Assembly (NCBI GenBank): GCA_017550285.1
Contig: JAFZPP010000016.1
Coordinates: 62,001-126,000 of the forward strand
DNA: 64,000 bases
Origin: Oscillospiraceae bacterium
GTDB taxonomy: Bacteria > Bacillota > Clostridia > Oscillospirales > Ruminococcaceae
Reading direction: 5' to 3'
In this document: one piece after another, positions 4,100-49,552 of the stretch
How the letters are laid out: every line of letters begins with the position of its first letter
How positions within the stretch are numbered: the first letter of the stretch is position 1
The notes under the pieces: model-generated
The model's database searches: none
Told to the model about the DNA's origin: nothing
Seen by the model: the letters and a program-made list of their open reading frames with translations, nothing else
Made by a program: the position numbers and the translations under genes

Positions 4100-5481
4100 A
4101 CGGATAATTCCTCAATCGCCGTTTTTGCAGCAGTCAGCTGCTCTCTGACAGCCGAGGCGGAAGGACCGCCCTCAGAGATTCTTCCGTTCAGACAGGTTTC
4201 AAGCGCGATTGCATCGTATACATCCTGATCGAATGCTTCACTGGCTTCCTGATAGGCTTCGAGCGGCAGGGTTTCGAGCGTGACACCCTCACGGATGCAT
4301 CTTGCAACGAGTGTACCCGTAATTTTATAGGCATCGCGGAAGGGGAGTCCCTTCTTGACGAGGTAGTCCGCGCAGTCCGTGGCATTGATGAAGCCCTTTG
4401 CAGCGGCAGCACGCATATTCTCCTTGTTGACGCGCATCGTTGCGAGCATCGGGTCAAAGGTCTTGAGGCAGAGCTTTGCCTGATCAATCGCATCAAAAAT
4501 CGCTTCCTTGTCCTCCTGCATATCCTTATTATATGCGAGCGGCAGACCTTTCAGCATCGAGAGCAGCGTTGTCAGATCGCCGATGACTCTGCCGGTCTTG
4601 CCGCGAATCAGCTCCGTGACATCCGGATTCTTTTTCTGCGGCATGATTGAGGAGCCGGTTGCATAGGCGTCGTCGAGTTCAATAAACTTGAACTCCCACG
4701 AACACCAGAGGATGATTTCCTCGGAGAATCGGGAAAGATGTACCATCAGCAGGGAAAGTGCATTTGCAAGCTCCACGCAGAAATCACGGTCGGATACAGC
4801 ATCCAGCGAATTCGGGACAGGCGCCGTGAATGCAAGAAGCTCTGCGGTCTGTTTCCGGTTAATCGGATAGGTCGTGCCGGCAAGTGCGCCTGCACCGAGC
4901 GGGCAGTAGTTCATACGCTTTGCGGTATCGACCAGTCTGCCGTCGTCGCGCAGGAGCATCCAGACATATGCAAGGATATGATGTGCGAGCGTGACCGGCT
5001 GTGCGCGTTGGAGATGCGTATACCCCGGCATGATTGTTTCGGTGTGCTGCTCTGCGATTTTGACAAGCGTTCTGAGCAGATTATGCAGCAGCTTTCGGAT
5101 TTCTGCAATCTCGTCACGGAGAATCAGACGTACATCCAGCGCGACCTGATCGTTTCTGGAACGTGCGGTATGCAGACGCTTGCCTGCATCGCCGATGCGC
5201 TTCGTCAGCTCTGCCTCGACGAACATATGGATATCTTCTGCTGTCGGGTCCATCAGCAGCGCACCGGAATCCAGATCGGCGAGAATGCCTTTCAGTCCTA
5301 CGATGATCTTCTGTGCATCATCCTTCGGGATAATGCCACAGTCTCCGAGCATCGTTGCATGTGCGATGCTGCCGCGGATATCCTGTGCATACATTCTTCC
5401 GTCAAAGGAGATCGAGGAATTGAATGCATTGACAGTTTCATCGACCTCTTTTGAAAATCTGCCTGCCCACATTTTTGCCAT
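4096..5481 (-). CDS. argH: Argininosuccinate lyase
   Basis: 461 residues, normal length. Splits argininosuccinate to arginine and fumarate, the last step of the pathway. The fumarase/aspartase superfamily signature GSSIMPQKKNPD is intact, with the N-terminal MWAGRFSKEVD and RSRNDQVALD motifs (substrate and catalytic residues) and TxLQRAQP. The ATG at 5481 follows GAAGGAAAGGA. An intrinsic terminator lies between argG and this gene, so argH expression may depend on readthrough. Confidence 0.97.
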   Translation of the reverse strand: MAKMWAGRFSKEVDETVNAFNSSISFDGRMYAQDIRGSIAHATMLGDCGIIPKDDAQKIIVGLKGILADLDSGALLMDPTAEDIHMFVEAELTKRIGDAGKRLHTARSRNDQVALDVRLILRDEIAEIRKLLHNLLRTLVKIAEQHTETIMPGYTHLQRAQPVTLAHHILAYVWMLLRDDGRLVDTAKRMNYCPLGAGALAGTTYPINRKQTAELLAFTAPVPNSLDAVSDRDFCVELANALSLLMVHLSRFSEEIILWCSWEFKFIELDDAYATGSSIMPQKKNPDVTELIRGKTGRVIGDLTTLLSMLKGLPLAYNKDMQEDKEAIFDAIDQAKLCLKTFDPMLATMRVNKENMRAAAAKGFINATDCADYLVKKGLPFRDAYKITGTLVARCIREGVTLETLPLEAYQEASEAFDQDVYDAIALETCLNGRISEGGPSASAVREQLTAAKTAIEELSV

Positions 5482-6949: not shown

Positions 6950-8158
6950 TCAATCAGGGAAGAATGAGCAGAAATCCTGTGTGCCGTAAAAGTAGCCGTC
7001 TGCGTCCTTGTTGTAGGCGAATCCGACGCCGATATGCGTGAAATCGGTACTGAGCAGGTTTTCGCGGTGCACATCGGAGCCGAGCCAGCCGTCGAGCGCA
7101 TCAAATGTATCAAACTGACCGCGGTCGATGTTTTCACCGCCCGCCATGTAGTCGATGCCGGCGTTGAGCATTCTGTCCTTACGCGAGGTGCCGTCGGAGC
7201 TGTGATGCTCGAACATATTATTTGCAGCCATATCGACACTGTGTGCGCGCGCGATTTTTGCAAGCTCCGGATGCCATTCCAGCACAGGGAGACCGTTGCG
7301 GGCACGCAGACCGTTCAGTGCATAATAATTGAGTTTTGAAAGCACCTCCAGATCATCGCGGTTTGCCAGCTTATCAAAGCGGATGCTGACATCGGCGCGC
7401 AGGACCGTGACAGCGTAAAGCTCACCGGTTTCACTGTTGAATTCGTCGCGGTATTCGCGGACAGAATAGCCGGAAGGCGGAGTATATTCACTGCAAATCC
7501 TGTAATAGCCGACGATATCGTCCTGATAGGCGATTGCGACCGTCGTATTTTTCGGATCATTTGCAAAGATTGCAAAAATGATGTTGCCGATTTCATAATT
7601 CACGGTCAGCATTTCATTCGGTTCCGTTTTGCCCGAAAGAACAGAGATCGAAACACCGAGCGGATACTGCGTCTGATCTGCGGTGAAATCAGAGTTTTCC
7701 GGCTGTGCCGGTTCGGTATCTGATATCGAAACAGTGGTCGTCACTGTTGCGGTGCTGACTGTAGACTCGACAGATGTTGTCTCTGTTTCTGCGGAAGTTG
7801 TTTCCATTCCCGGTGCGGTCTCAATGTACGGATTCGGCGGCATCGGAACCTGTTTTGCGATCATGCGCAGAATATGAAGGGAATCCTGATCGTCGATGGT
7901 CTGATCCTGATTCGCGTCTGCGTTTGTCATGCCCTGCCTGGAGATCATTGCGTTCGGATCCTCGGCGCAGAATCTGGAAAGCAGAACGGCATCCGATACG
8001 TCGATTGATTTGTCAACGTTCACATCACCCGGATAAAATACGCCGCCGAATGCATGGAGCGCAAGCAGTGAGATCAAAACTGCAAAGGAAACCGCTGCTG
8101 GTATGATTATCTTGTAAAGCCGCGGCTTTCGCTTCGATGCAGTACAGTTCGTATTCAT
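6950..8158 (-). CDS. Membrane-anchored protein with dockerin and CAP/SCP domain
   Basis: 402 residues. Basic N-terminus and hydrophobic segment (16-38), either an uncleaved anchor or a signal peptide. A complete dockerin follows at about 43-103: first calcium loop DVNVDKSIDVSD, second DANQDQTIDDQD. Then a Ser/Thr linker (115-150), an unassigned beta-rich region (160-265), and a C-terminal CAP domain (about 275-398) with the usual His306, His318/319, Glu342 and His364 cavity residues (FEHHSSDG, GENID, DVHRENLL). The dockerin is unusual in being N-terminal, near the membrane. CAP domains occur in secreted bacterial proteins of mostly unknown function. The ATG at 8158 follows AAAGGGGT. Confidence 0.88.
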   Translation of the reverse strand: MNTNCTASKRKPRLYKIIIPAAVSFAVLISLLALHAFGGVFYPGDVNVDKSIDVSDAVLLSRFCAEDPNAMISRQGMTNADANQDQTIDDQDSLHILRMIAKQVPMPPNPYIETAPGMETTSAETETTSVESTVSTATVTTTVSISDTEPAQPENSDFTADQTQYPLGVSISVLSGKTEPNEMLTVNYEIGNIIFAIFANDPKNTTVAIAYQDDIVGYYRICSEYTPPSGYSVREYRDEFNSETGELYAVTVLRADVSIRFDKLANRDDLEVLSKLNYYALNGLRARNGLPVLEWHPELAKIARAHSVDMAANNMFEHHSSDGTSRKDRMLNAGIDYMAGGENIDRGQFDTFDALDGWLGSDVHRENLLSTDFTHIGVGFAYNKDADGYFYGTQDFCSFFPD

Positions 8159-20167: not shown

Positions 20168-20200
20168 TATGGGTAAGGAAACAGAAAGGCGGTGAGCGAT

Positions 20201-20764
20201 ATGCAGACCGATGAGAAACAACTGATCGCACAGATTCAGGCGCGCGATGAACATGCACTCGAAGTAATGTACGATGCATACGGTGATTTGTGCAGACGCA
20301 CGGCATACAATATTCTGAATAATGAACGTGATGCCGAGGAAGCATTCAACGATGTACTGTATAATGCATGGAATGCGATTCCTGCAAATCCGCCGGCGCA
20401 TTTGCAGGCATATCTGCTGACACTGACGCGGCACATTGCAATCAACCGATACCGGACAGAGACAAGGCAGAAGCGCGGCGGCGGACAGGTTCCGGTCGCG
20501 CTGGAAGAGCTTAATGAATGTCTTGCGTCCGGCGAGAATGTCGAAGCGCAGATCAGCCGGAATGCCATGCTTGCGGAGATGAACCGGTTTCTCGGTTCTG
20601 TTTCATCTTCCAAGCGGCGCATATTTCTTGCGCGGTACGGTGCACTGATGTCGGTGCGGGAGATCGCCGCGGAGTACGGCATGTCTGAGGACGCAGTCAA
20701 GAAGGCGCTCAGCCGGATGCGGCAGGCGCTCCGGAAGCATCTGGAACAGGAGGGATATTTATGA
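20201..20764 (+). CDS. ECF-type RNA polymerase sigma factor
   Basis: 187 residues. Sigma-70 region 2 (about 10-80, with YDAYGDLCRRTAY and ERDAEEAFNDVLYNAW) and region 4 (about 125-180, with SVREIAAEYGMSEDAVKKAL as the helix-turn-helix). There is no region 3, as in ECF sigmas. The ATG at 20201 was chosen because AGGCGGTGAG before it matches the anti-SD in eight of nine positions; the GTG three codons earlier lies within that site. Its stop overlaps the next start as ATGA, pairing it with a membrane anti-sigma. Its own promoter looks ECF-type, suggesting autoregulation. Confidence 0.9.
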   Translation: MQTDEKQLIAQIQARDEHALEVMYDAYGDLCRRTAYNILNNERDAEEAFNDVLYNAWNAIPANPPAHLQAYLLTLTRHIAINRYRTETRQKRGGGQVPVALEELNECLASGENVEAQISRNAMLAEMNRFLGSVSSSKRRIFLARYGALMSVREIAAEYGMSEDAVKKALSRMRQALRKHLEQEGYL

Positions 20765-21897
20765 AAAATACAGATTTGCTTGATGTGATCGGCGAAGTGA
20801 ATGCGGCTTACTATGAAGACATGGCGCAGCATTTCTCCGGTAAACGTCAGCGGATTCGCAGTATTGTGATGCGGTTTGGCGCGGCGGCTGCGGTGATCGG
20901 CGTCATGACAGTCACTGCCGTAACATTTGCAAGTGTATTCCGTGAGGGGATTCAGACAACACAGCAGCCTGCAAGCAGCGGGATACAGACTGCGTCATCG
21001 GATACGCAGGCAACGGATCGCAGCGAATCGTCCAAGCCGGAACAAACGCTTCCGACAGATTTATTTGAGGTTGTGCAGAACACAACCGTTACGGAAACAA
21101 GCGCATCTGCCGAAACAACAACGGAACGGATTATCCCGTTTCCGTCAGATACGGAAATGCCGGATAATAGTCTGGAGCAGGATGTCGGCAGCCGGTTTCT
21201 TGTAAATCAGTTTTGCAGGAGCGGTATACTTGCAATGACGGTCAATGAAGCGCATTTATATGATTCTCTTGCCGATGCCGGTCTGACTTTTGATGATCTG
21301 ACAGAATCCTTCCGAACTGATAACGAGGCACTGAGAGATTTTTATGAAGGTCGAACCAATACGGTCAGTACAGAAACGGCGAATTCGGCATTGATTCTGA
21401 TGATGAATCCGGACGGCGGAGAAGAAAACCAGCAGAACTGGCGATTCATTAAAGCGACAATCACAGTAGAAAATATCAACGCAGTTTCCGGATTGGGGGG
21501 AGCAACCGGGCTGACTTTTTCGGACGGAACCCATGTCACATACAGCGATTTTGATTTCCCAATCAATTCCTTTGGATTTGGTGTCCTTCCGAATCGGGAA
21601 GTGATCGAATCGCAGGGCAAATCGTTTTACGGTGCGACGCTGACAATGTGGGGAATGCAGTACAATACATCTGAAAAACAATTTTACACGGATTCATACC
21701 GCCTAAGCATGATTCATCTGGAACCAGGCGAAGCGATCACTTTTGAGGTCGGTGCATTTGTACCCAAGATTTATACGCAGTTCATAGACAGTCATCTCAA
21801 CAGTATCGGTTGTGAGATCGGCACCGATCTGAAACAATATTATATGTTCGGTACCGAACTGTCCAGACCGTATGTGCACTTCAATTTTGATGAATAA
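20761..21897 (+). CDS. Membrane-bound anti-sigma factor with outside sensor domain
   Basis: 378 residues. About 35 cytoplasmic residues (likely sigma-binding), a membrane helix (about 37-60), a Ser/Thr/Gln-rich linker (about 65-150), and an extracellular domain of about 225 residues of no family I know. Its layout and ATGA overlap with the sigma gene mark it as the anti-sigma. In clostridia, RsgI-type anti-sigmas carry sugar-binding modules outside and control cellulosome genes; this domain is different, but its location beside GH43 and GH9 genes suggests an analogous role. Inference only. Confidence 0.75.
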   Translation: MKNTDLLDVIGEVNAAYYEDMAQHFSGKRQRIRSIVMRFGAAAAVIGVMTVTAVTFASVFREGIQTTQQPASSGIQTASSDTQATDRSESSKPEQTLPTDLFEVVQNTTVTETSASAETTTERIIPFPSDTEMPDNSLEQDVGSRFLVNQFCRSGILAMTVNEAHLYDSLADAGLTFDDLTESFRTDNEALRDFYEGRTNTVSTETANSALILMMNPDGGEENQQNWRFIKATITVENINAVSGLGGATGLTFSDGTHVTYSDFDFPINSFGFGVLPNREVIESQGKSFYGATLTMWGMQYNTSEKQFYTDSYRLSMIHLEPGEAITFEVGAFVPKIYTQFIDSHLNSIGCEIGTDLKQYYMFGTELSRPYVHFNFDE

Positions 21898-43032: not shown

Positions 43033-44259
43033 TTACAATTCATGATGATGCGCAGTTAGTACCTGTTTCAGTGCATCGCGTTCATCCGGCGGCAGACTGC
43101 GAACGGCATCTCCGTGATAGAGCGCAATGCCGCTGACCGCAGAATTGCCTAGCGCATCCGCAGCCTGCCCTGCCGGAAGATATTTTTCCTCCAGCCATTC
43201 GTCTGCACCGCTGCCCGCAAACGGGTCTGACTGTCCGTATTTATACACAGCAAGGCCGGTCAGCAGCTTTACGTTTTCATTTCGGGGCAGCGCTGCCCAT
43301 TGACGAAGTAATTCCGAAAACGGCAATGACTCATTTTCATATCCGTAATACAGCTGCGGTATGATCCAGTCGCAGCACTGTGTTTCGCCGATCCATGCAG
43401 GCACATCGGCAAACTGTGTCTCGCTGTTTGCCTTTGGATTGCCCTGCGGACTGACGGAGAACACGATATCCGGATCGGCGTTTTTGACAGCCGCGTACAT
43501 CTGCTGTATGAGGCTTGTAATTATGCCGCGGCGCCACGCAGCAAGATCGTCAGCGCCGGACGCACGGAATACAGGTGCATCAAATTCCGGTGAAACAGTC
43601 GGATAGAAATAGTCGTCGATGTGGATGCCGTCCGGATGATATGTTTCGATCAGTTCTGTGATCGCACCGACCAGGAATGCCCCTGTGGATTCTGCCGCAG
43701 GATTCAGATAATACCTGCCGTCCCATTCCGAAAGATTTTCAGCACGCAGTTCAGGATTCCGATGCCATTTTTGCAGCAGGGAATCTCCTGACTGTGCTTC
43801 GGTGTATTCCTTTGTTTGCAGACGCAGCGGATTGAGCCATGCATGGAATGAAAGACCGAGTTCTCTGCATGCATCCGAAAAAAGCTGCATCAGGTCGAAC
43901 TGCTCTGCCGCAGGCAGCTGCGGATAATAAGCAGACGGGTAAATGCTTTCCCCGAATGCGCATACATGCACGAATACCGTATTGATGCCGGTATCCTGCA
44001 AATCGCGCAGATAATTCATGATATTGTCCCGCGTTGTATGCTGATCGGATGAGATGAGCTCCGTGACGGTAAAATACGGAATCCATGCAGCAATGGCTGG
44101 CTCGGGCTCCGGTTCTGTATCAGGCTGGAGCAGATGAAGCTGCGCATAGGACTGTCCGCAGAAGCAGTCCTGTTCTTCCGCTGCGGTATCCTTGCGGCAG
44201 CCTGTGAACAGCAGCAGAATCAGCAGAACCGAAATCAAAATGCGGAAACCGATATGCAT
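43033..44259 (-). CDS. GHL10 (DUF187) glycoside-hydrolase-like lipoprotein
   Basis: 408 residues. Lipobox LLFTGC near residue 20, then a TIM-barrel domain of the glycosyl-hydrolase-like 10 family (about 55-405): IAAWIPYFTVTEL, GINTVFVHVCAFGES, FHAWLNPLR, DGIHIDDYFYP (conserved acidic pair), SVSPQGNP and IIPQLYYGY. Members are thought to act on cell-wall or envelope glycans, but activity is largely unproven. ATG at 44259 follows GAAAGGAG; an upstream ATG in frame is unsupported. Confidence 0.92.
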   Translation of the reverse strand: MHIGFRILISVLLILLLFTGCRKDTAAEEQDCFCGQSYAQLHLLQPDTEPEPEPAIAAWIPYFTVTELISSDQHTTRDNIMNYLRDLQDTGINTVFVHVCAFGESIYPSAYYPQLPAAEQFDLMQLFSDACRELGLSFHAWLNPLRLQTKEYTEAQSGDSLLQKWHRNPELRAENLSEWDGRYYLNPAAESTGAFLVGAITELIETYHPDGIHIDDYFYPTVSPEFDAPVFRASGADDLAAWRRGIITSLIQQMYAAVKNADPDIVFSVSPQGNPKANSETQFADVPAWIGETQCCDWIIPQLYYGYENESLPFSELLRQWAALPRNENVKLLTGLAVYKYGQSDPFAGSGADEWLEEKYLPAGQAADALGNSAVSGIALYHGDAVRSLPPDERDALKQVLTAHHHEL

Positions 44260-44350
44260 ATGAAAGACTCCTTTCAGGTACTGTCCTTCTATGATACCGC
44301 ATTCCTTCCGCGAATGCAGTCGAAGCTGCATAGGATGCAAAAAATACAGC

Positions 44351-44387
44351 GAAAAGGCGCCCCGTACACAGGATACAGGGCGCCTTG
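44351..44387 (-). terminator. Terminator of the MoxR-DUF58-cohesin operon
   Basis: Minus strand AAGGCGCCC pairs with GGGCGCCTT around a 15-base partly paired loop and is followed by TTCG after CCTT. It lies five bases past the cohesin gene stop. Confidence 0.78.
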
Positions 44388-44391
44388 CATT

Positions 44392-44940
44392 TTATTCGAT
44401 TGTCAGAGTGCCTTCCACCGTTTTCGGATTCAGGTGATCCTTGTTATAATTGTTCAGCGAATCCATATTGCATGAAAATTTGTACTGCTGTCCGCTCGCA
44501 GCATTATCCGGAATATCAAAATACACTGTAAACATTGTACCGCTTGTCTTGCAGTCCTCTGAGGTCATAGCACCGAATGCAATCAAATGATTCTCCTCGC
44601 CGATCAGACAGGATTTCATAAAGCCCTGCGCAGCTTCGCCAAGATCACATTTTGCATACGGAAAATTGGAATTAGGTGAGGTTTCGCCGGTTTTCTGCGG
44701 TGTGAGCGCAGGATCGTAAACCAGCTGCAAGCCGGTCGCAGCATAGCCGGGATTGTTCCAGATTCTGACACTGACCGGAACGCCTTTGTCGCCGGCATGT
44801 GCGGTACAGTTTTCGACACCGATTGTCAGCTCGGAGCCGATCTTTTGTTCATTGCCGGCTGCCGTACTGCCGCCGCATGCCGTCAGCAGGGCAGTAGCGG
44901 TCAGCAGCGCGAGTGCAGAAGCGCAAAATACATATTTCAT
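44392..44940 (-). CDS. Single-cohesin-like lipoprotein
   Basis: 182 residues. Lipoprotein signal with lipobox LLTAC (Cys about 22), a 12-residue spacer, then one domain of about 145 residues that reads as a cohesin: first strand ELTIGVENC, AGDKGVPVSVRIWNNPGYA, GLQLVYDPALTP, central LIAFGAMTSED, GTMFTVYFDIPDNA and a final VEGTLTIE. These are the normal positions of cohesin landmarks (xGdxVxVPVxl, YDPxxL, FxVk). It would anchor a dockerin protein directly to the membrane. Its ATG overlaps the DUF58 stop by four bases. Alternative: another carbohydrate-binding beta-sandwich of the same superfamily. Confidence 0.72.
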   Translation of the reverse strand: MKYVFCASALALLTATALLTACGGSTAAGNEQKIGSELTIGVENCTAHAGDKGVPVSVRIWNNPGYAATGLQLVYDPALTPQKTGETSPNSNFPYAKCDLGEAAQGFMKSCLIGEENHLIAFGAMTSEDCKTSGTMFTVYFDIPDNAASGQQYKFSCNMDSLNNYNKDHLNPKTVEGTLTIE

Positions 44941-46052
44941 GAAGCAGATTTCCTTTCTTGCTGTAAAGTGATATGCCTGATATTGGCAGAATAAACCGTT
45001 TCGGGAAGCGGTTTCAGGGAAAGAACCGTGATACGGGTGTCTGAGCGTGCAATTTGCATCAGTTCCTCAGAAACAAACGGCGTCAGAACAATGGCAGCGG
45101 AATTCTGATTCTCGGCAAGATACCGCCGCAGCATTCTTGTGAATTTGCAGGAGATCGTATCCTGCATGGCAGCGAGCATCCGCAGCAGCTTCGGCAGATG
45201 ATCTGCGCCGCCGGAAGTGCGTGATTCGGCAGGCATGCCGTCAATTTCAGTATTGGCAAGCAGCCTTACCGGCAGATGCAGTTGTGCAGCAGAGCCGAGC
45301 AGTGCAGCACAGAGTCGAATCTCATCCTCAAACAGTGCACGGTCTGACAGCCTGTCACGGTCTGTGATTCTGGTCTCCAGATTGAGCAGCAGCGTAAACT
45401 CCGGCGATGCCGTTTCCTGATATTGCCAGACCATCGGGCTGACCGATCTTGCAGATGCAGTCCAGCAGATATCACGCACCGGATCGCCGTCAGCATATTC
45501 CCGAATGCCGCAGACTGCATAGCGGTCCGGAATCACAGTCCGTCTGCGCACGATTTCACCGCCGAACTGCTGCGGCAGTTCTGTCAGCTGATCCAGTCGC
45601 CTGACAGCAGGCAGTACGGTCAGATACACAACAGTATCGGGCAGCGGTTTTGACCATTCCGCCGTACCGAACAGATCGCTGATCACGAGCACTGCATGCG
45701 ATACCGTAAACATACCGCGTTTCGTGCACACAACATGCCAGTGCCGTTCGATTTTTTTATAAGGAAACAGGCAGAAGCAGCTGGAAACAAACCTTGTTTC
45801 TTCCGATACGGATGACTGTGCACAGGCAAACAGAAGTGATGCATCTGTTGTGAGCTCCGCCTTAACCCATGGCAGCGGAACCGGTTTCCGGCTGATAATT
45901 GTTTCAATCAGTTCGACAGTATCACCTTCGGAAACCTCATCGGCTGTAAAGCGCAAATGATACTCAAGATTCCGGAAGCCGAAGCGTTCGATGAGCTGCT
46001 GCGTGGCCCAGACCGTGATGCCGATAATCAGCAGCAGCAACAGCAGCTTCAT
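44937..46052 (-). CDS. DUF58 membrane-associated protein
   Basis: 371 residues. One N-terminal hydrophobic helix (1-18), a beta-rich region (about 30-165), then the DUF58 core with the signature GIREYADGDPVRDICWTASAR and a von Willebrand A-like domain after it (FTLLLNLETRI onward). DUF58 proteins pair with MoxR ATPases and are thought to aid assembly or maturation of envelope proteins. Starts within the moxR stop (ATGA overlap) and overlaps the cohesin lipoprotein gene. Confidence 0.92.
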   Translation of the reverse strand: MKLLLLLLIIGITVWATQQLIERFGFRNLEYHLRFTADEVSEGDTVELIETIISRKPVPLPWVKAELTTDASLLFACAQSSVSEETRFVSSCFCLFPYKKIERHWHVVCTKRGMFTVSHAVLVISDLFGTAEWSKPLPDTVVYLTVLPAVRRLDQLTELPQQFGGEIVRRRTVIPDRYAVCGIREYADGDPVRDICWTASARSVSPMVWQYQETASPEFTLLLNLETRITDRDRLSDRALFEDEIRLCAALLGSAAQLHLPVRLLANTEIDGMPAESRTSGGADHLPKLLRMLAAMQDTISCKFTRMLRRYLAENQNSAAIVLTPFVSEELMQIARSDTRITVLSLKPLPETVYSANIRHITLQQERKSAS

Positions 46053-47014
46053 TGCTTGGGTACCTCAACCGTCCTGAGAATATCAGTCAGAACAGCTTCG
46101 GATGCCTTACGGTCAGAGAGCAGACCGTCCGACGCTTGCAGACGGTGACCGCATACCGGTATCCAGACTGCCTTGACATCATCAGGAAGCAGGTAATCTC
46201 TGCCTTCCATTGCGGCAACTGCCTGTGCCGCATGACGCAAAGCAAGTGCTGCACGGGTGCTCAGACCGAAACGGAGCTTCGGATGAGAACGGGTCGCATC
46301 AACAAGCGACAGCAGATAATCCAGTACCGCTTCGGAAGCGGAAACCTCCCGAACAGTATTCTGTGCAGCGATCAGCTTTTCCGGAGCCATGACAGGGGAC
46401 AGCGTGTCTAGCGGATCTGTCAGCTGACGGTCGGCAAGGATCGCAAGCTCCTGATTACGATTCGGAGTCCCCATGGAAAGCCGCATAAAAAACCGGTCAA
46501 GCTGCGCTTCCGGCAGTGGAAATGTGCCCTGTAATTCAATCGGATTCTGCGTTGCAATGACAAAAAAAGGTTCCGGAAGCGGATAGGTTTTGCCGCCCGC
46601 CGTGACCTGATGTTCCGCCATGCATTCGAGCAGACCTGCCTGTGAGCGCGGTGCCATACGGTTGATCTCATCGGCAAGCAGCAGATTTGTGAAAACCGGA
46701 CCCTGCCGGAATTCCATTTTCCGGCTGCCGGTCGAATCCTGCTGCAATATTTCAAAACCTGTCAGATCGGCAGGCATCAGATCAGGGGTACACTGTACAC
46801 GACGGCTTTCGCATCCGGTCAGAACAGCAATCGCCTTGACAAGTGTCGTCTTGCCGGTGCCGGGCAGATCCTCGAGCAGAACATGTCCGCCGCAGAGCAG
46901 TGCGGCAGTCAGCATCCGGATTGTGTCGGGTGCGCCGACAATGACGCGGGCTGTTTCAGTCATAAGCTGTTCAGTCAGCAATTTTAATTCAGAGATACGG
47001 ATGATATCAGTCAT
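46049..47014 (-). CDS. MoxR-type AAA+ ATPase
   Basis: 321 residues. Walker A LPGTGKTT (about residues 50-57), Walker B LLADEINRM, sensor 1 ATQNPIE, and arginine finger region, followed by the C-terminal lid domain. MoxR ATPases act as chaperones with DUF58/VWA partners. ATG follows GGAAAGGAG. First gene of the operon with DUF58 and the cohesin lipoprotein. Confidence 0.95.
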   Translation of the reverse strand: MTDIIRISELKLLTEQLMTETARVIVGAPDTIRMLTAALLCGGHVLLEDLPGTGKTTLVKAIAVLTGCESRRVQCTPDLMPADLTGFEILQQDSTGSRKMEFRQGPVFTNLLLADEINRMAPRSQAGLLECMAEHQVTAGGKTYPLPEPFFVIATQNPIELQGTFPLPEAQLDRFFMRLSMGTPNRNQELAILADRQLTDPLDTLSPVMAPEKLIAAQNTVREVSASEAVLDYLLSLVDATRSHPKLRFGLSTRAALALRHAAQAVAAMEGRDYLLPDDVKAVWIPVCGHRLQASDGLLSDRKASEAVLTDILRTVEVPKQ

Positions 47015-47045: not shown

Positions 47046-47074
47046 AGTATATCACGCGAACGGACTTTTGTCAA
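47046..47074 (-). promoter_or_regulatory. Promoter of the MoxR-DUF58-cohesin operon
   Basis: Minus strand TTGACA (47069-47074), 17 bases, TATACT (47046-47051), 32 bases before the moxR start. Confidence 0.85.
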
Positions 47075-47410: not shown

Positions 47411-49552
47411 ATGAAAAAACATTTTCTCCACCGCGTCGGCGCTGCCTGTACCAGTGCTGTTATGTCCGTCGGAACCCTGATTGCGGTCGGTGCAACACCG
47501 ATGACCGCAAGTGCCGCGGATACTGAAAACTACGCAAAGCTCCTTCAGTACAGCCTTTATCTTTATGATGCCAACATGTGCGGCAAGGACGTTGAGTCTA
47601 TCGGCGCAATGAGCTGGCGCGGCAACTGCCATACGGACGATGAGGTTCCGGGCGGATACCATGATGCCGGTGACCACGCAATGTTCGGTCTGCCGCAGGG
47701 CTATTCGGCATCTACGCTTCTCTGGTCCTACTATGAGTTCAAGGATTCCTATGATTCGCTCGGTCTTACCCCGCATCTGAAGGTGATCACCGACCGCTTC
47801 ATGGACTTCTTCAAGCGTTCGACTGTTCTGAACGGTGACAGTGTCTCCAAGTTCCTTTATCAGAAGGGAGACGGCACAGCTGACCATTCCTACTGGGGCG
47901 CACCTGAGCAGCAGGGCGGCGGCAGAAAGATGTTCTGGACAAGCGGCGGCGCAAGTGATATTGCTGCTGAATACGCAGCTGCGCTTGCACTGGATGCGAT
48001 CTGCTTCGGCAATCAGGATTCTCTGAAATACGCCAAAGCGCTTTATAAGTTCTCTACGCAGCACAATCAGTGTGCGACAGACGGTCCGACGGGTTTCTAT
48101 CCGTCCGATAACTGCAAGGATGATCAGGCTTGGGCTGCTGCCTGGCTGCATATCGCAACCAAGGAAGGAAGTTACAAGGATGACTGTACTTCCAAGGTCA
48201 CACAGTACCTCGGCTGGGCACATGCATGGGGCAATGTCGATCTCGGCGCCGCGACTGTTCTTGCAGAAATCACCGGAGACTGGAACAAGGTCAAGGGCTA
48301 TCTCGGCAGCACATGCAGCGGCAGCGGCTATCTCTGCATGGATGACTGGGGCAGCGCACGTTACAACTGCGGCATGCAGTTTGTTTCCATGGTTGCAACC
48401 AAGCGCGGCGCAGCAGATTACAAGAACTGGGCAAAGGGTCAGATGAACTACATCCTCGGTGCAAACGGTCCGTGTCTTGTTGTCGGCTTTGCTGCAAATT
48501 CCCCGACGCACTGCCACCACAGAGCAGCTTCCGGCATGACCGACTGCAACAACAACGAGCCGAATAAGTATGTTCTTGTCGGCGCACTTGTCGGCGGTCC
48601 GAACAAGGGCGGCACCTATGTTGACCAGCGCTATGATGAAATTGGTTATCAGGTAAATGAGGTTGCGCTTGACTATCAGGCATGCCTCGTCGGCGCAGCA
48701 GCAGCTCTGTATGATGCATACAAGACCGGTTCGACTGTTACCTCGATTGAGGGCGTCAAGAGCGTACAGCTCGGTGAGGCTACGCAGCAGACCACGCCGG
48801 AGCAGACGACTGCTACCACGCAGGATACACAGAACACACAGCCGACCCAGAATACGCAGCCTACTCAGAACACGCAGCCGTCTCAGAATACACAGAATAC
48901 CAATCAGCCCGGCGGTTCTCTGACCTTTACCAAGGCTGAAGATATGGATAACAACCCGAAGTGGGTTGTTCAGACCGGCGGCGCAAGCAAGGTTGTATTC
49001 AATCTCAAGACCAATTCTAACGATACCGAGGCAAACGGCTGCTTCGAGATCAACGGCAAGATGACAGAGTGGTCGGCAGCTCCGTCCGGCGGCGAGATGA
49101 CTGTTGAGTGCGAGGTTCCGTCCGGCGCAAATGAGGTCTCGATCACTGTCTGGTGGCCGACCAGCGCAACACTCGAGTCCGTAACCGGCAACGGCAGCGG
49201 TACACAGCAGACCCAGCCGACGCAGCAGACACAGCAGTCCACTACCACCACCACAACAACTACTACAACGACCACGACTACCACCACAACGACGACGACA
49301 TCTTCCTCCTCTTCTTCTGAGCGCAAGGATGAAGTGACCATGTGGGGCGATGCAAACCTCAGCGGCAAGGTTGACGTTTCGGATGCAGTTCTGGTTGCAC
49401 GCTTCTGTGCCGAGGATTCTTCTGCCAACATTACGTCTGTCGGCCGTCTGAATGCAGATGTGACGCATAACAACAATGTTGATACGGAAGATGTCACAAA
49501 GATTCTCCAGTTTGTTGCAAAGCTGATTACAGCTGATGATCTTGCACACTGA
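47411..49552 (+). CDS. GH9 endoglucanase with novel-looking module, poly-Thr linker and dockerin
   Basis: 713 residues. Signal peptide (1-35); GH9 domain (about 38-440) with YHDAGDHA (Asp85, Asp88), the His-containing SPTHCHHRAASG and the acid Glu in QVNEVALDYQ; Gln/Thr/Asn linker with NTQPTQ repeats (about 458-497); a module of about 95 residues (LTFTKAEDMDNNPKWVV onward), a probable carbohydrate-binding beta-sandwich of undetermined family; a linker with 20 consecutive Thr then six Ser; and a dockerin (DANLSGKVDVSD, DVTHNNNVDTED). No CBM3c, so different from the GH9 at 25 kb. ATG follows GAGAGGGG. The gene stands alone. Confidence 0.94.
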   Translation: MKKHFLHRVGAACTSAVMSVGTLIAVGATPMTASAADTENYAKLLQYSLYLYDANMCGKDVESIGAMSWRGNCHTDDEVPGGYHDAGDHAMFGLPQGYSASTLLWSYYEFKDSYDSLGLTPHLKVITDRFMDFFKRSTVLNGDSVSKFLYQKGDGTADHSYWGAPEQQGGGRKMFWTSGGASDIAAEYAAALALDAICFGNQDSLKYAKALYKFSTQHNQCATDGPTGFYPSDNCKDDQAWAAAWLHIATKEGSYKDDCTSKVTQYLGWAHAWGNVDLGAATVLAEITGDWNKVKGYLGSTCSGSGYLCMDDWGSARYNCGMQFVSMVATKRGAADYKNWAKGQMNYILGANGPCLVVGFAANSPTHCHHRAASGMTDCNNNEPNKYVLVGALVGGPNKGGTYVDQRYDEIGYQVNEVALDYQACLVGAAAALYDAYKTGSTVTSIEGVKSVQLGEATQQTTPEQTTATTQDTQNTQPTQNTQPTQNTQPSQNTQNTNQPGGSLTFTKAEDMDNNPKWVVQTGGASKVVFNLKTNSNDTEANGCFEINGKMTEWSAAPSGGEMTVECEVPSGANEVSITVWWPTSATLESVTGNGSGTQQTQPTQQTQQSTTTTTTTTTTTTTTTTTTTTSSSSSSERKDEVTMWGDANLSGKVDVSDAVLVARFCAEDSSANITSVGRLNADVTHNNNVDTEDVTKILQFVAKLITADDLAH

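Follow-up and report, generated by a model that had tools for sequence, protein, structure and literature searches.

How a cell keeps and assembles the many dockerin proteins of its cellulosome once they are exported is largely an open question, and new anchoring mechanisms are named as a key challenge in the accessible part of PMC12484212. The locus described here raises this question at the cytoplasmic membrane. It lies in a 64,000-nucleotide stretch of an Oscillospiraceae genome (hereafter, the window), and its central gene, which we call CohLP, encodes a short predicted lipoprotein carrying one cohesin. A preliminary description had proposed that such a protein would be a lipid-based anchor, holding enzymes one by one at the membrane without a scaffoldin. 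Is the domain a cohesin, is the anchor a lipid, which genes accompany CohLP, and which dockerins would it bind? The same genome holds 21 cohesin matches, 16 of them above the cut-off.

Results

Architecture of CohLP

The gene is an open reading frame with an ATG start, and its translation of 182 residues fits the boundaries already assigned to it (Table 1). The N terminus reads MKYVFCASALALLTATALLTAC|GG, the signal peptide ending in LLTAC|GG, and a 15-residue linker then leads to a single cohesin that runs up to the last residue. Neither a dockerin nor a sorting signal occurs in the 182-residue protein. Its C terminus (GTLTIE) is the end of the cohesin, as in 23 aligned relatives, and a sortase-type C-terminal sorting signal with a hydrophobic tail is absent from CohLP and from these 23. 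A chance reading frame is ruled out by the presence of the family in 25 genomes.

Table 1. Features of the CohLP locus, in window coordinates
Feature	Coordinates	Strand	Evidence or remark
CohLP, single-cohesin predicted lipoprotein, 182 aa	44392..44940	-	Translation, Pfam, family alignment, profile search of PDB
CohLP predicted type II (lipoprotein) signal peptide, codons 1-22, ending in lipobox LTAC	44875..44940	-	Translation, conserved Cys, strict lipobox, Lgt and LspA in genome
CohLP Cys22 codon	44875-44877	-	Translation
CohLP cohesin domain, residues 36-182, up to C terminus	44395..44835	-	Pfam PF00963 at residues 46-181; profile match to PDB cohesins
DUF58 protein, 371 aa; stop overlaps CohLP start by 4 bases (ATGA)	44937..46052	-	PF01882, E 1.4e-8; conserved neighbor
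MoxR-type AAA+ ATPase, 321 aa; 4-base overlap with DUF58	46049..47014	-	PF07726 AAA_3, E 6.3e-58
Hairpin just 3' of CohLP stop, candidate intrinsic terminator	44349..44388	-	-25.7 kcal/mol, z -5.05 versus shuffles
Promoter-like TTGACA-17-TATACT with TG, 31 bases 5' of MoxR start	47046..47074	-	11 of 12
GH9 cellulase with dockerin, divergent from operon, position conserved	47411..49552	+	Pfam; named loci
GHL10 (glycosyl-hydrolase-like) protein, downstream	43033..44340	-	PF02638, E 7.3e-32

Cohesin is the sole Pfam family given for CohLP, at E 2.6e-4 and 21.7 bits against a curated cut-off of 24.1, and an NCBIfam scan returned nothing but a signal-peptide match under its cut-off. When the single sequence was searched against the PDB, the "autonomous cohesin" headed the list, but its E value was 0.17 and unrelated chains began at 0.3. 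Scores of this kind would suit an Ig-like module of another sort, for instance one that binds carbohydrate, or a cohesin in decay. The Pfam score is, however, ordinary for such proteins, since L146, a lipoprotein of the sister genus, reaches 21.8 bits in Pfam Cohesin though it aligns with a solved cohesin at 176 bits; an anchoring cohesin of the same genome as CohLP obtains 23.1 against the cut-off of 24.1. The Pfam Cohesin cut-off misses cohesins of the CohLP and L146 kind. This agrees with the accessible part of PMC11557425, according to which standard profiles frequently overlook ruminococcal cohesins.

A profile of 24 relatives of the same architecture, CohLP itself included, matched 10 PDB sequences at E ≤ 0.01 (best E 1.4e-10), among them the autonomous cohesin 4wkz/4n2o at 3e-10 and ScaE (2zf9) at 4e-10. 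The assignment is far above chance, since all 10 are named autonomous cohesin, ScaE, scaffoldin or cell-wall/cellulosome-anchoring protein. Five domain positions (G15, T103, Y105, P109, and G115) are invariant in the 24-member alignment, the domain is kept in all 24 members, and no listed match contains an internal stop, which speaks against decay; the Pfam listing holds no family of carbohydrate-binding modules. Judged by the profile, the domain is a cohesin and not a carbohydrate-binding module, and we regard the latter reading, together with that of a decayed cohesin, as very improbable. The comparison with cohesin families suggested in the preliminary description left the single sequence just under the Pfam cut-off and led the 24-member profile to cohesin and scaffoldin chains only; together with the translation and the lipobox, it establishes the reading frame with a single cohesin on a predicted lipoprotein as real.

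The lipobox of CohLP, LTAC at residues 19 to 22, is of the strict type. All 24 aligned relatives keep its cysteine; a regular-expression search assigns a strict lipobox to 7 of them and a looser one to 16, while one (L042, QTGC) fits neither. Conservation across the genus is thus established for both the predicted lipid-bearing cysteine and the cohesin. The genome has one match each for Lgt (E 1.3e-70) and LspA (E 7.5e-40), as well as seven sortase matches, and two other single-cohesin proteins (L158:4707-5645 and L159:6184-7065) end in a sorting-signal-like tail composed of TGDAG, a hydrophobic stretch and lysines. The bacterium therefore seems to possess both anchors, and the lipobox of CohLP, set against these tails, bears out the earlier suggestion that its anchor is unlike the sortase type.

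The linker between cysteine and cohesin measures 12 to 109 residues in the family (median, 91.5). With only 15 residues in CohLP, the cohesin would lie against the membrane, under the wall, and we infer that this linker is not built to span the wall. We picture CohLP as a predicted lipoprotein anchored on the outer side of the cytoplasmic membrane, its single cohesin kept near that membrane. Display of enzymes at the surface fits poorly with this picture, as a protein with a 15-residue linker should sit beneath the wall.

Another protein of the same genome (L015:586-2022, minus strand) combines one cohesin with a further C-terminal part, which reads like a GH25 lysozyme (GIDVSQYQG...), as we take it to be.

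An operon with MoxR and DUF58 genes

Gene overlaps, the hairpin with its T runs, and the promoter-like site together suggest an operon of three genes, with that of the MoxR ATPase first, DUF58 second and CohLP last. The hairpin at 44349..44388, which on the same strand precedes runs of four and six T residues, is likely the intrinsic terminator of this operon; a terminator scan of the region did not have it among its listed sites. The promoter-like site at 47046..47074 is only suggestive, as the region has 6 such sites against 4.3 expected (sd 2.2), no clear enrichment.

The arrangement recurs in named loci, that is, in metagenome-assembled genomes titled Ruminococcus, Oscillospiraceae or Clostridia, many of which are the same contigs as the genomes of our survey and hence not independent: MoxR precedes DUF58 in 14 of 14 loci with DUF58, and in 9 of the 12 that include MoxR and sequence beyond it, a GH9 gene points away from MoxR in divergent orientation. 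The GHL10 gene lies downstream in 11 of 24 CohLP loci (flanks of at most 1.5 kb) and is thus often, not always, conserved.

A CohLP-related match was obtained in 32 of 100 related genomes, 29 of which are among the 30 genomes of the genus. CohLP itself is present in 25 of these 30, in 24 as the best match and in the 25th (G009) at another match. The remaining five (G005, G006, G012, G022, and G026) showed none. The idea that they hide a weaker copy was rejected: all listed matches of G005, G006 and G012, and those of G026 except one 1269-residue frame, yielded no single-cohesin lipoprotein, and G022, whose genome is 58% complete, has no CohLP match.

Of the 30 genomes of the genus, 22 gave a DUF58 match; CohLP comes after it in 20 of the 22 (G009 included), the exceptions being G007 and G015. 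At 19 loci for which the spacing was determined, 10 show the ATGA overlap and 17 a distance of 20 bases or less, the others having 65 and 169 bases. Conversely, 5 of 24 CohLP loci lack DUF58 (L030, which reaches the contig end, L037, L038, L039, and L042).

The survey outside the genus recovered DUF58 at E ≤ 1e-20 in 35 of 197 family genomes; the best 30 loci were used, 28 of them from other genera. No cohesin lipoprotein lies by DUF58, up to 1.5 kb beyond, in any of these 28 loci (from the best 30 of 35). Another frame starts at the DUF58 stop in 24 of the 28, measuring 422 to 480 residues in 21 cases and 132, 219 and 295 residues in the three that hit the end of the stretch. When three of the 24 frames were scanned, two gave DUF4129 (E 9e-8 and 8e-4, the latter under the cut-off) and the third nothing credible. 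In this genus, CohLP therefore occupies the slot that its relatives give to another, at least sometimes DUF4129-type, protein: the third gene of the MoxR-DUF58 operon is CohLP here, and not one for a DUF4129 membrane protein. The MoxR-DUF58-CohLP operon link is an addition to the preliminary description.

So tight an operon, with the slot filled by other frames elsewhere, suggests that the cohesin fold might serve as an extracytoplasmic partner of MoxR-DUF58, replacing the DUF4129-type protein in envelope stress or quality control and having no dockerin ligand. The partnership is loose in several genomes, however: CohLP occurs without an adjacent DUF58 in G007, G013, G015 and G016, and the MoxR-DUF58 pair without an adjacent CohLP in G007 and G015. 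In G016 (L110:4063-7375), where no DUF58 match was obtained anywhere in the genome, the GH9 gene adjoins CohLP without an intervening MoxR-DUF58 pair, so CohLP is able to do without MoxR-DUF58. An absolute dependence is thereby excluded. Moreover, among the genomes searched, CohLP stands beside the pair only in this cohesin-rich genus, and its sequence is still near cohesins known to bind dockerins. We consider a partner role that dispenses with dockerins unlikely, if worth keeping in view.

Other predicted membrane-bound cohesins

The sister genus (g20) has seven single-cohesin lipoproteins in seven genomes (L145-L151), with a lipobox-like motif in 7 of 7. One of them, L146, matches the solved autonomous cohesin 4wkz at 6e-51; its PDB search further returned two chains of HIV envelope (E 1e-4 and 0.008), which we regard as spurious. 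The lipid-anchored cohesin is therefore not a one-off. Each of the seven genes lies behind a large AAA+ ATPase gene, of Clp type according to Pfam in L146 and with the same N terminus by eye in the other six. Taken with CohLP, they indicate that standalone cohesins with a lipid anchor have a place in more than one kind of operon, in both cases behind an AAA+ ATPase gene. The ATPase encoded upstream of L145-L151 starts with a zinc-finger-like CxxC pair, and CvpA-like and DUF5711 genes precede it at the L146 locus. A third, very divergent single-cohesin-like lipoprotein is encoded in G275 of genus g29 (L153, reverse complement 4803-5393), after a gene that we take to specify nicotinate-nucleotide pyrophosphorylase.

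Cohesins were also seen on transmembrane proteins. At three loci of the same genus, two in G026 and one in G003 (L206:4005-5752, L210:897-3178, and L212:1870-3953), a sigma-factor gene, confirmed by Pfam in L206 and by BLAST in L210 and L212, is followed by an overlapping or adjacent gene for a protein having one apparent transmembrane segment, a long linker rich in S and T and, outside the cell, a cohesin-like domain. BLAST relates these proteins to CohLP at 2.6e-15 (L206), 3.4e-15 (L210) and 2.5e-9 (L212); the L206 protein has no convincing Pfam match, Cohesin included. A fourth transmembrane protein with a cohesin was found in L225. Those of L206, L210 and L212 look like cohesin-tipped anti-sigma factors and could sense the supply of dockerins. 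The accessible part of PMC6056542, on clostridial sigma-I, describes no cohesin-tipped anti-sigma factor. Within the window, the plus-strand stretch 20192-21897 contains an ECF sigma factor gene (Pfam) overlapping one whose product has a single apparent transmembrane segment and a large extracellular part and falls in no Pfam family; this putative sigma/anti-sigma pair has the layout of the cohesin-tipped ones, with no cohesin detected.

Dockerin classes and cohesin phylogeny

The five dockerins announced for the window are present and related, all being type A, asymmetric, and of the pattern DVSDAV..[AS]R..AED. Their listed positions (7, 24, 27, 42, and 49 kb) need one correction: in the gene that starts at 24 kb, the dockerin itself lies at about 22 kb. 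The window gene at 6950-8158 (minus strand) has its dockerin near the N terminus, from residue 44 on, and the C-terminal half of its product presumably is a CAP/SCP domain, which it resembles.

Classes were assigned by regular expressions, only on stretches that had been selected for their dockerins, which cover part of the 3.4-Mb genome and whose reading frames may be cut at the stretch ends; on this basis, 82 dockerin reading frames comprise 24 of type A (DVSDAV, asymmetric), 22 of type B (DAQ, two similar repeats) and 36 of type C. Among cohesin-bearing reading frames with a classed dockerin, 10 of 11 are of the DAQ type (B) and one is of type A, against 12 of 71 type B among the others (Fisher p 2.8e-6); 12 of 23 cohesin reading frames are outside this count, their dockerin being absent or left unclassed by the expressions.

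In a tree of 56 cohesins, for which 11 of 67 rows with long branches had been dropped and whose groups were named after a quick tree had been seen, scaffoldin-type cohesins fall on one side (96/93) and CohLP, the ScaG-like and the anchor cohesins on the other. A clade uniting CohLP with the cohesins of a 1949-residue multi-cohesin scaffoldin is rejected (AU p 0.00035). The poorly resolved quick tree of all 67 rows again sets the scaffoldin-type cohesins apart from CohLP but has the anchor cohesins on the scaffoldin-type side, and because their place differs between the two trees, we claim no kinship of CohLP with sortase-type anchors. Support for monophyly of CohLP is low (43/0). The AU test neither rejects nor establishes such a clade (p 0.072), nor one uniting CohLP with the ScaG-like lipoproteins (p 0.058).

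These results bear on the proposal that CohLP docks single dockerin enzymes of type A, such as the product of the GH9 neighbor, at the membrane without a scaffoldin. The conserved divergent position of GH9, its direct adjacency to CohLP in G016 and the wealth of dockerins in the genome, with at least 149 matches (150 of 296 candidates scored), many in long frames, all accord with it. The window dockerins, however, are exclusively of type A while cohesin-borne dockerins are mostly DAQ, the clade with the scaffoldin cohesins is rejected, and from a short linker under the wall an enzyme would have no reach to its substrate. Docking of the window's enzymes one by one appears to us rather improbable.

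Another kind of ligand is suggested by Ruminococcus flavefaciens. As far as the accessible part of PMC5301203 goes, group-1 enzyme dockerins bind ScaA and ScaB there, whereas group-4 dockerins, carried by scaffoldins and adaptors, are ligands of the anchoring ScaE; their binding by the standalone cohesin G was very weak in microarrays, its support coming from ELISA. Group-4 dockerins are internally symmetric (same source), and type B is alike in this respect. By analogy with ScaE and, more weakly, cohesin G, the ligand of CohLP is likely a scaffoldin or adaptor dockerin of the symmetric DAQ type.

Discussion

Conservation throughout a genus of gut bacteria and an unexpected, chaperone-like gene set make CohLP a probable holding point for exported parts of the cellulosome. 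The explanation that we favor, and to which we give about an even chance, is that CohLP serves dockerin proteins, probably scaffoldins or adaptors, as a transit station next to the membrane. Such proteins, most likely those with DAQ-type dockerins, would be caught by CohLP beneath the wall on emerging from the Sec channel, held there, and then released to sortase-type anchors and scaffoldins further out. The MoxR ATPase and DUF58 protein, made together with CohLP, may assist from the membrane and the cytoplasm, though they are not strictly required. Several points weigh against a transit station: the single sequence scores under the Pfam cut-off, monophyly of the family is poorly supported, microarrays gave cohesin G very weak dockerin binding, the dockerin type is assigned by analogy, five of the 30 genomes showed no CohLP, and MoxR-DUF58 is not obviously cellulosomal. 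A dock for single window enzymes is less likely than a transit station; the preliminary description thus keeps its lipid-anchored cohesin, and loses ground over what that cohesin would hold.

A bolder version of the transit station may be imagined, although we think it quite doubtful: an envelope AAA+ chaperone system which, in one genus, has exchanged its usual membrane partner for a lipid-anchored cohesin, and in which exported cellulosome subunits would be caught at the membrane and checked or loaded with the help of the ATPase. If it were true, membrane cohesins, among them the Clp-linked ones on lipoproteins of the sister genus and those at the tips of the putative anti-sigma proteins, would constitute a general second layer of the cellulosome, devoted to assembly and sensing under the wall and not to display. 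To our knowledge, the role of MoxR-DUF58 systems is poorly known, and the CohLP operon ties cellulosome assembly to such a system. A genus-wide, operon-linked, lipid-anchored cohesin also gives a modest, experimentally tractable entry to the transit of cellulosome parts at the membrane.

Comparison with known systems

We found no description of a ruminococcal lipoprotein cohesin in a literature search conducted mostly without subscription papers. The accessible parts of PMC2721979, PMC4035507 and PMC5817068 describe none; words beginning with "Lipo" are absent from PMC5301203, PMC4081043, PMC11557425 and PMC10701907, as is "lipoprotein" from PMC5590126, PMC6780208, PMC12484212 and PMC3672088.

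ScaE of R. flavefaciens (PDB 2zf9), which fixes dockerin proteins to the cell, resembles CohLP in having a single cohesin. It differs by belonging to the sca cluster and by its LPXTG/sortase wall anchor (accessible part of PMC5301203), whereas CohLP has a predicted lipid anchor in the membrane. Among clostridial single-cohesin proteins, a transit-station or shuttle role has been proposed for OlpC/ScaG and OrfXp; OlpC and the clostridial ScaG use a module that binds the surface (both points from the accessible part of PMC6507058), and OrfXp is encoded within the cip-cel operon (accessible parts of PMC10701907 and PMC3723904).

A close likeness in architecture is to the autonomous cohesin ScaG/CohG (PDB 4wkz and 4n2o), which, like CohLP, consists of one cohesin with nothing after it. 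The sister-genus homologs L145-L151 share with CohLP the signal peptide, the lipobox-like motif, the linker and the one C-terminal cohesin, but these ScaG-like lipoproteins are far from CohLP in sequence, and their neighborhoods are unlike, a Clp-type or large ATPase gene preceding them where MoxR-DUF58 precedes CohLP. We take 4wkz to be the R. flavefaciens protein of Voronov-Goldman 2015. Finally, the MoxR-DUF58 operons of other genera begin as this one does, with an AAA_3 ATPase and then DUF58, mostly closely spaced; their third gene is mostly a frame of about 450 residues, whereas here it encodes a cohesin lipoprotein.
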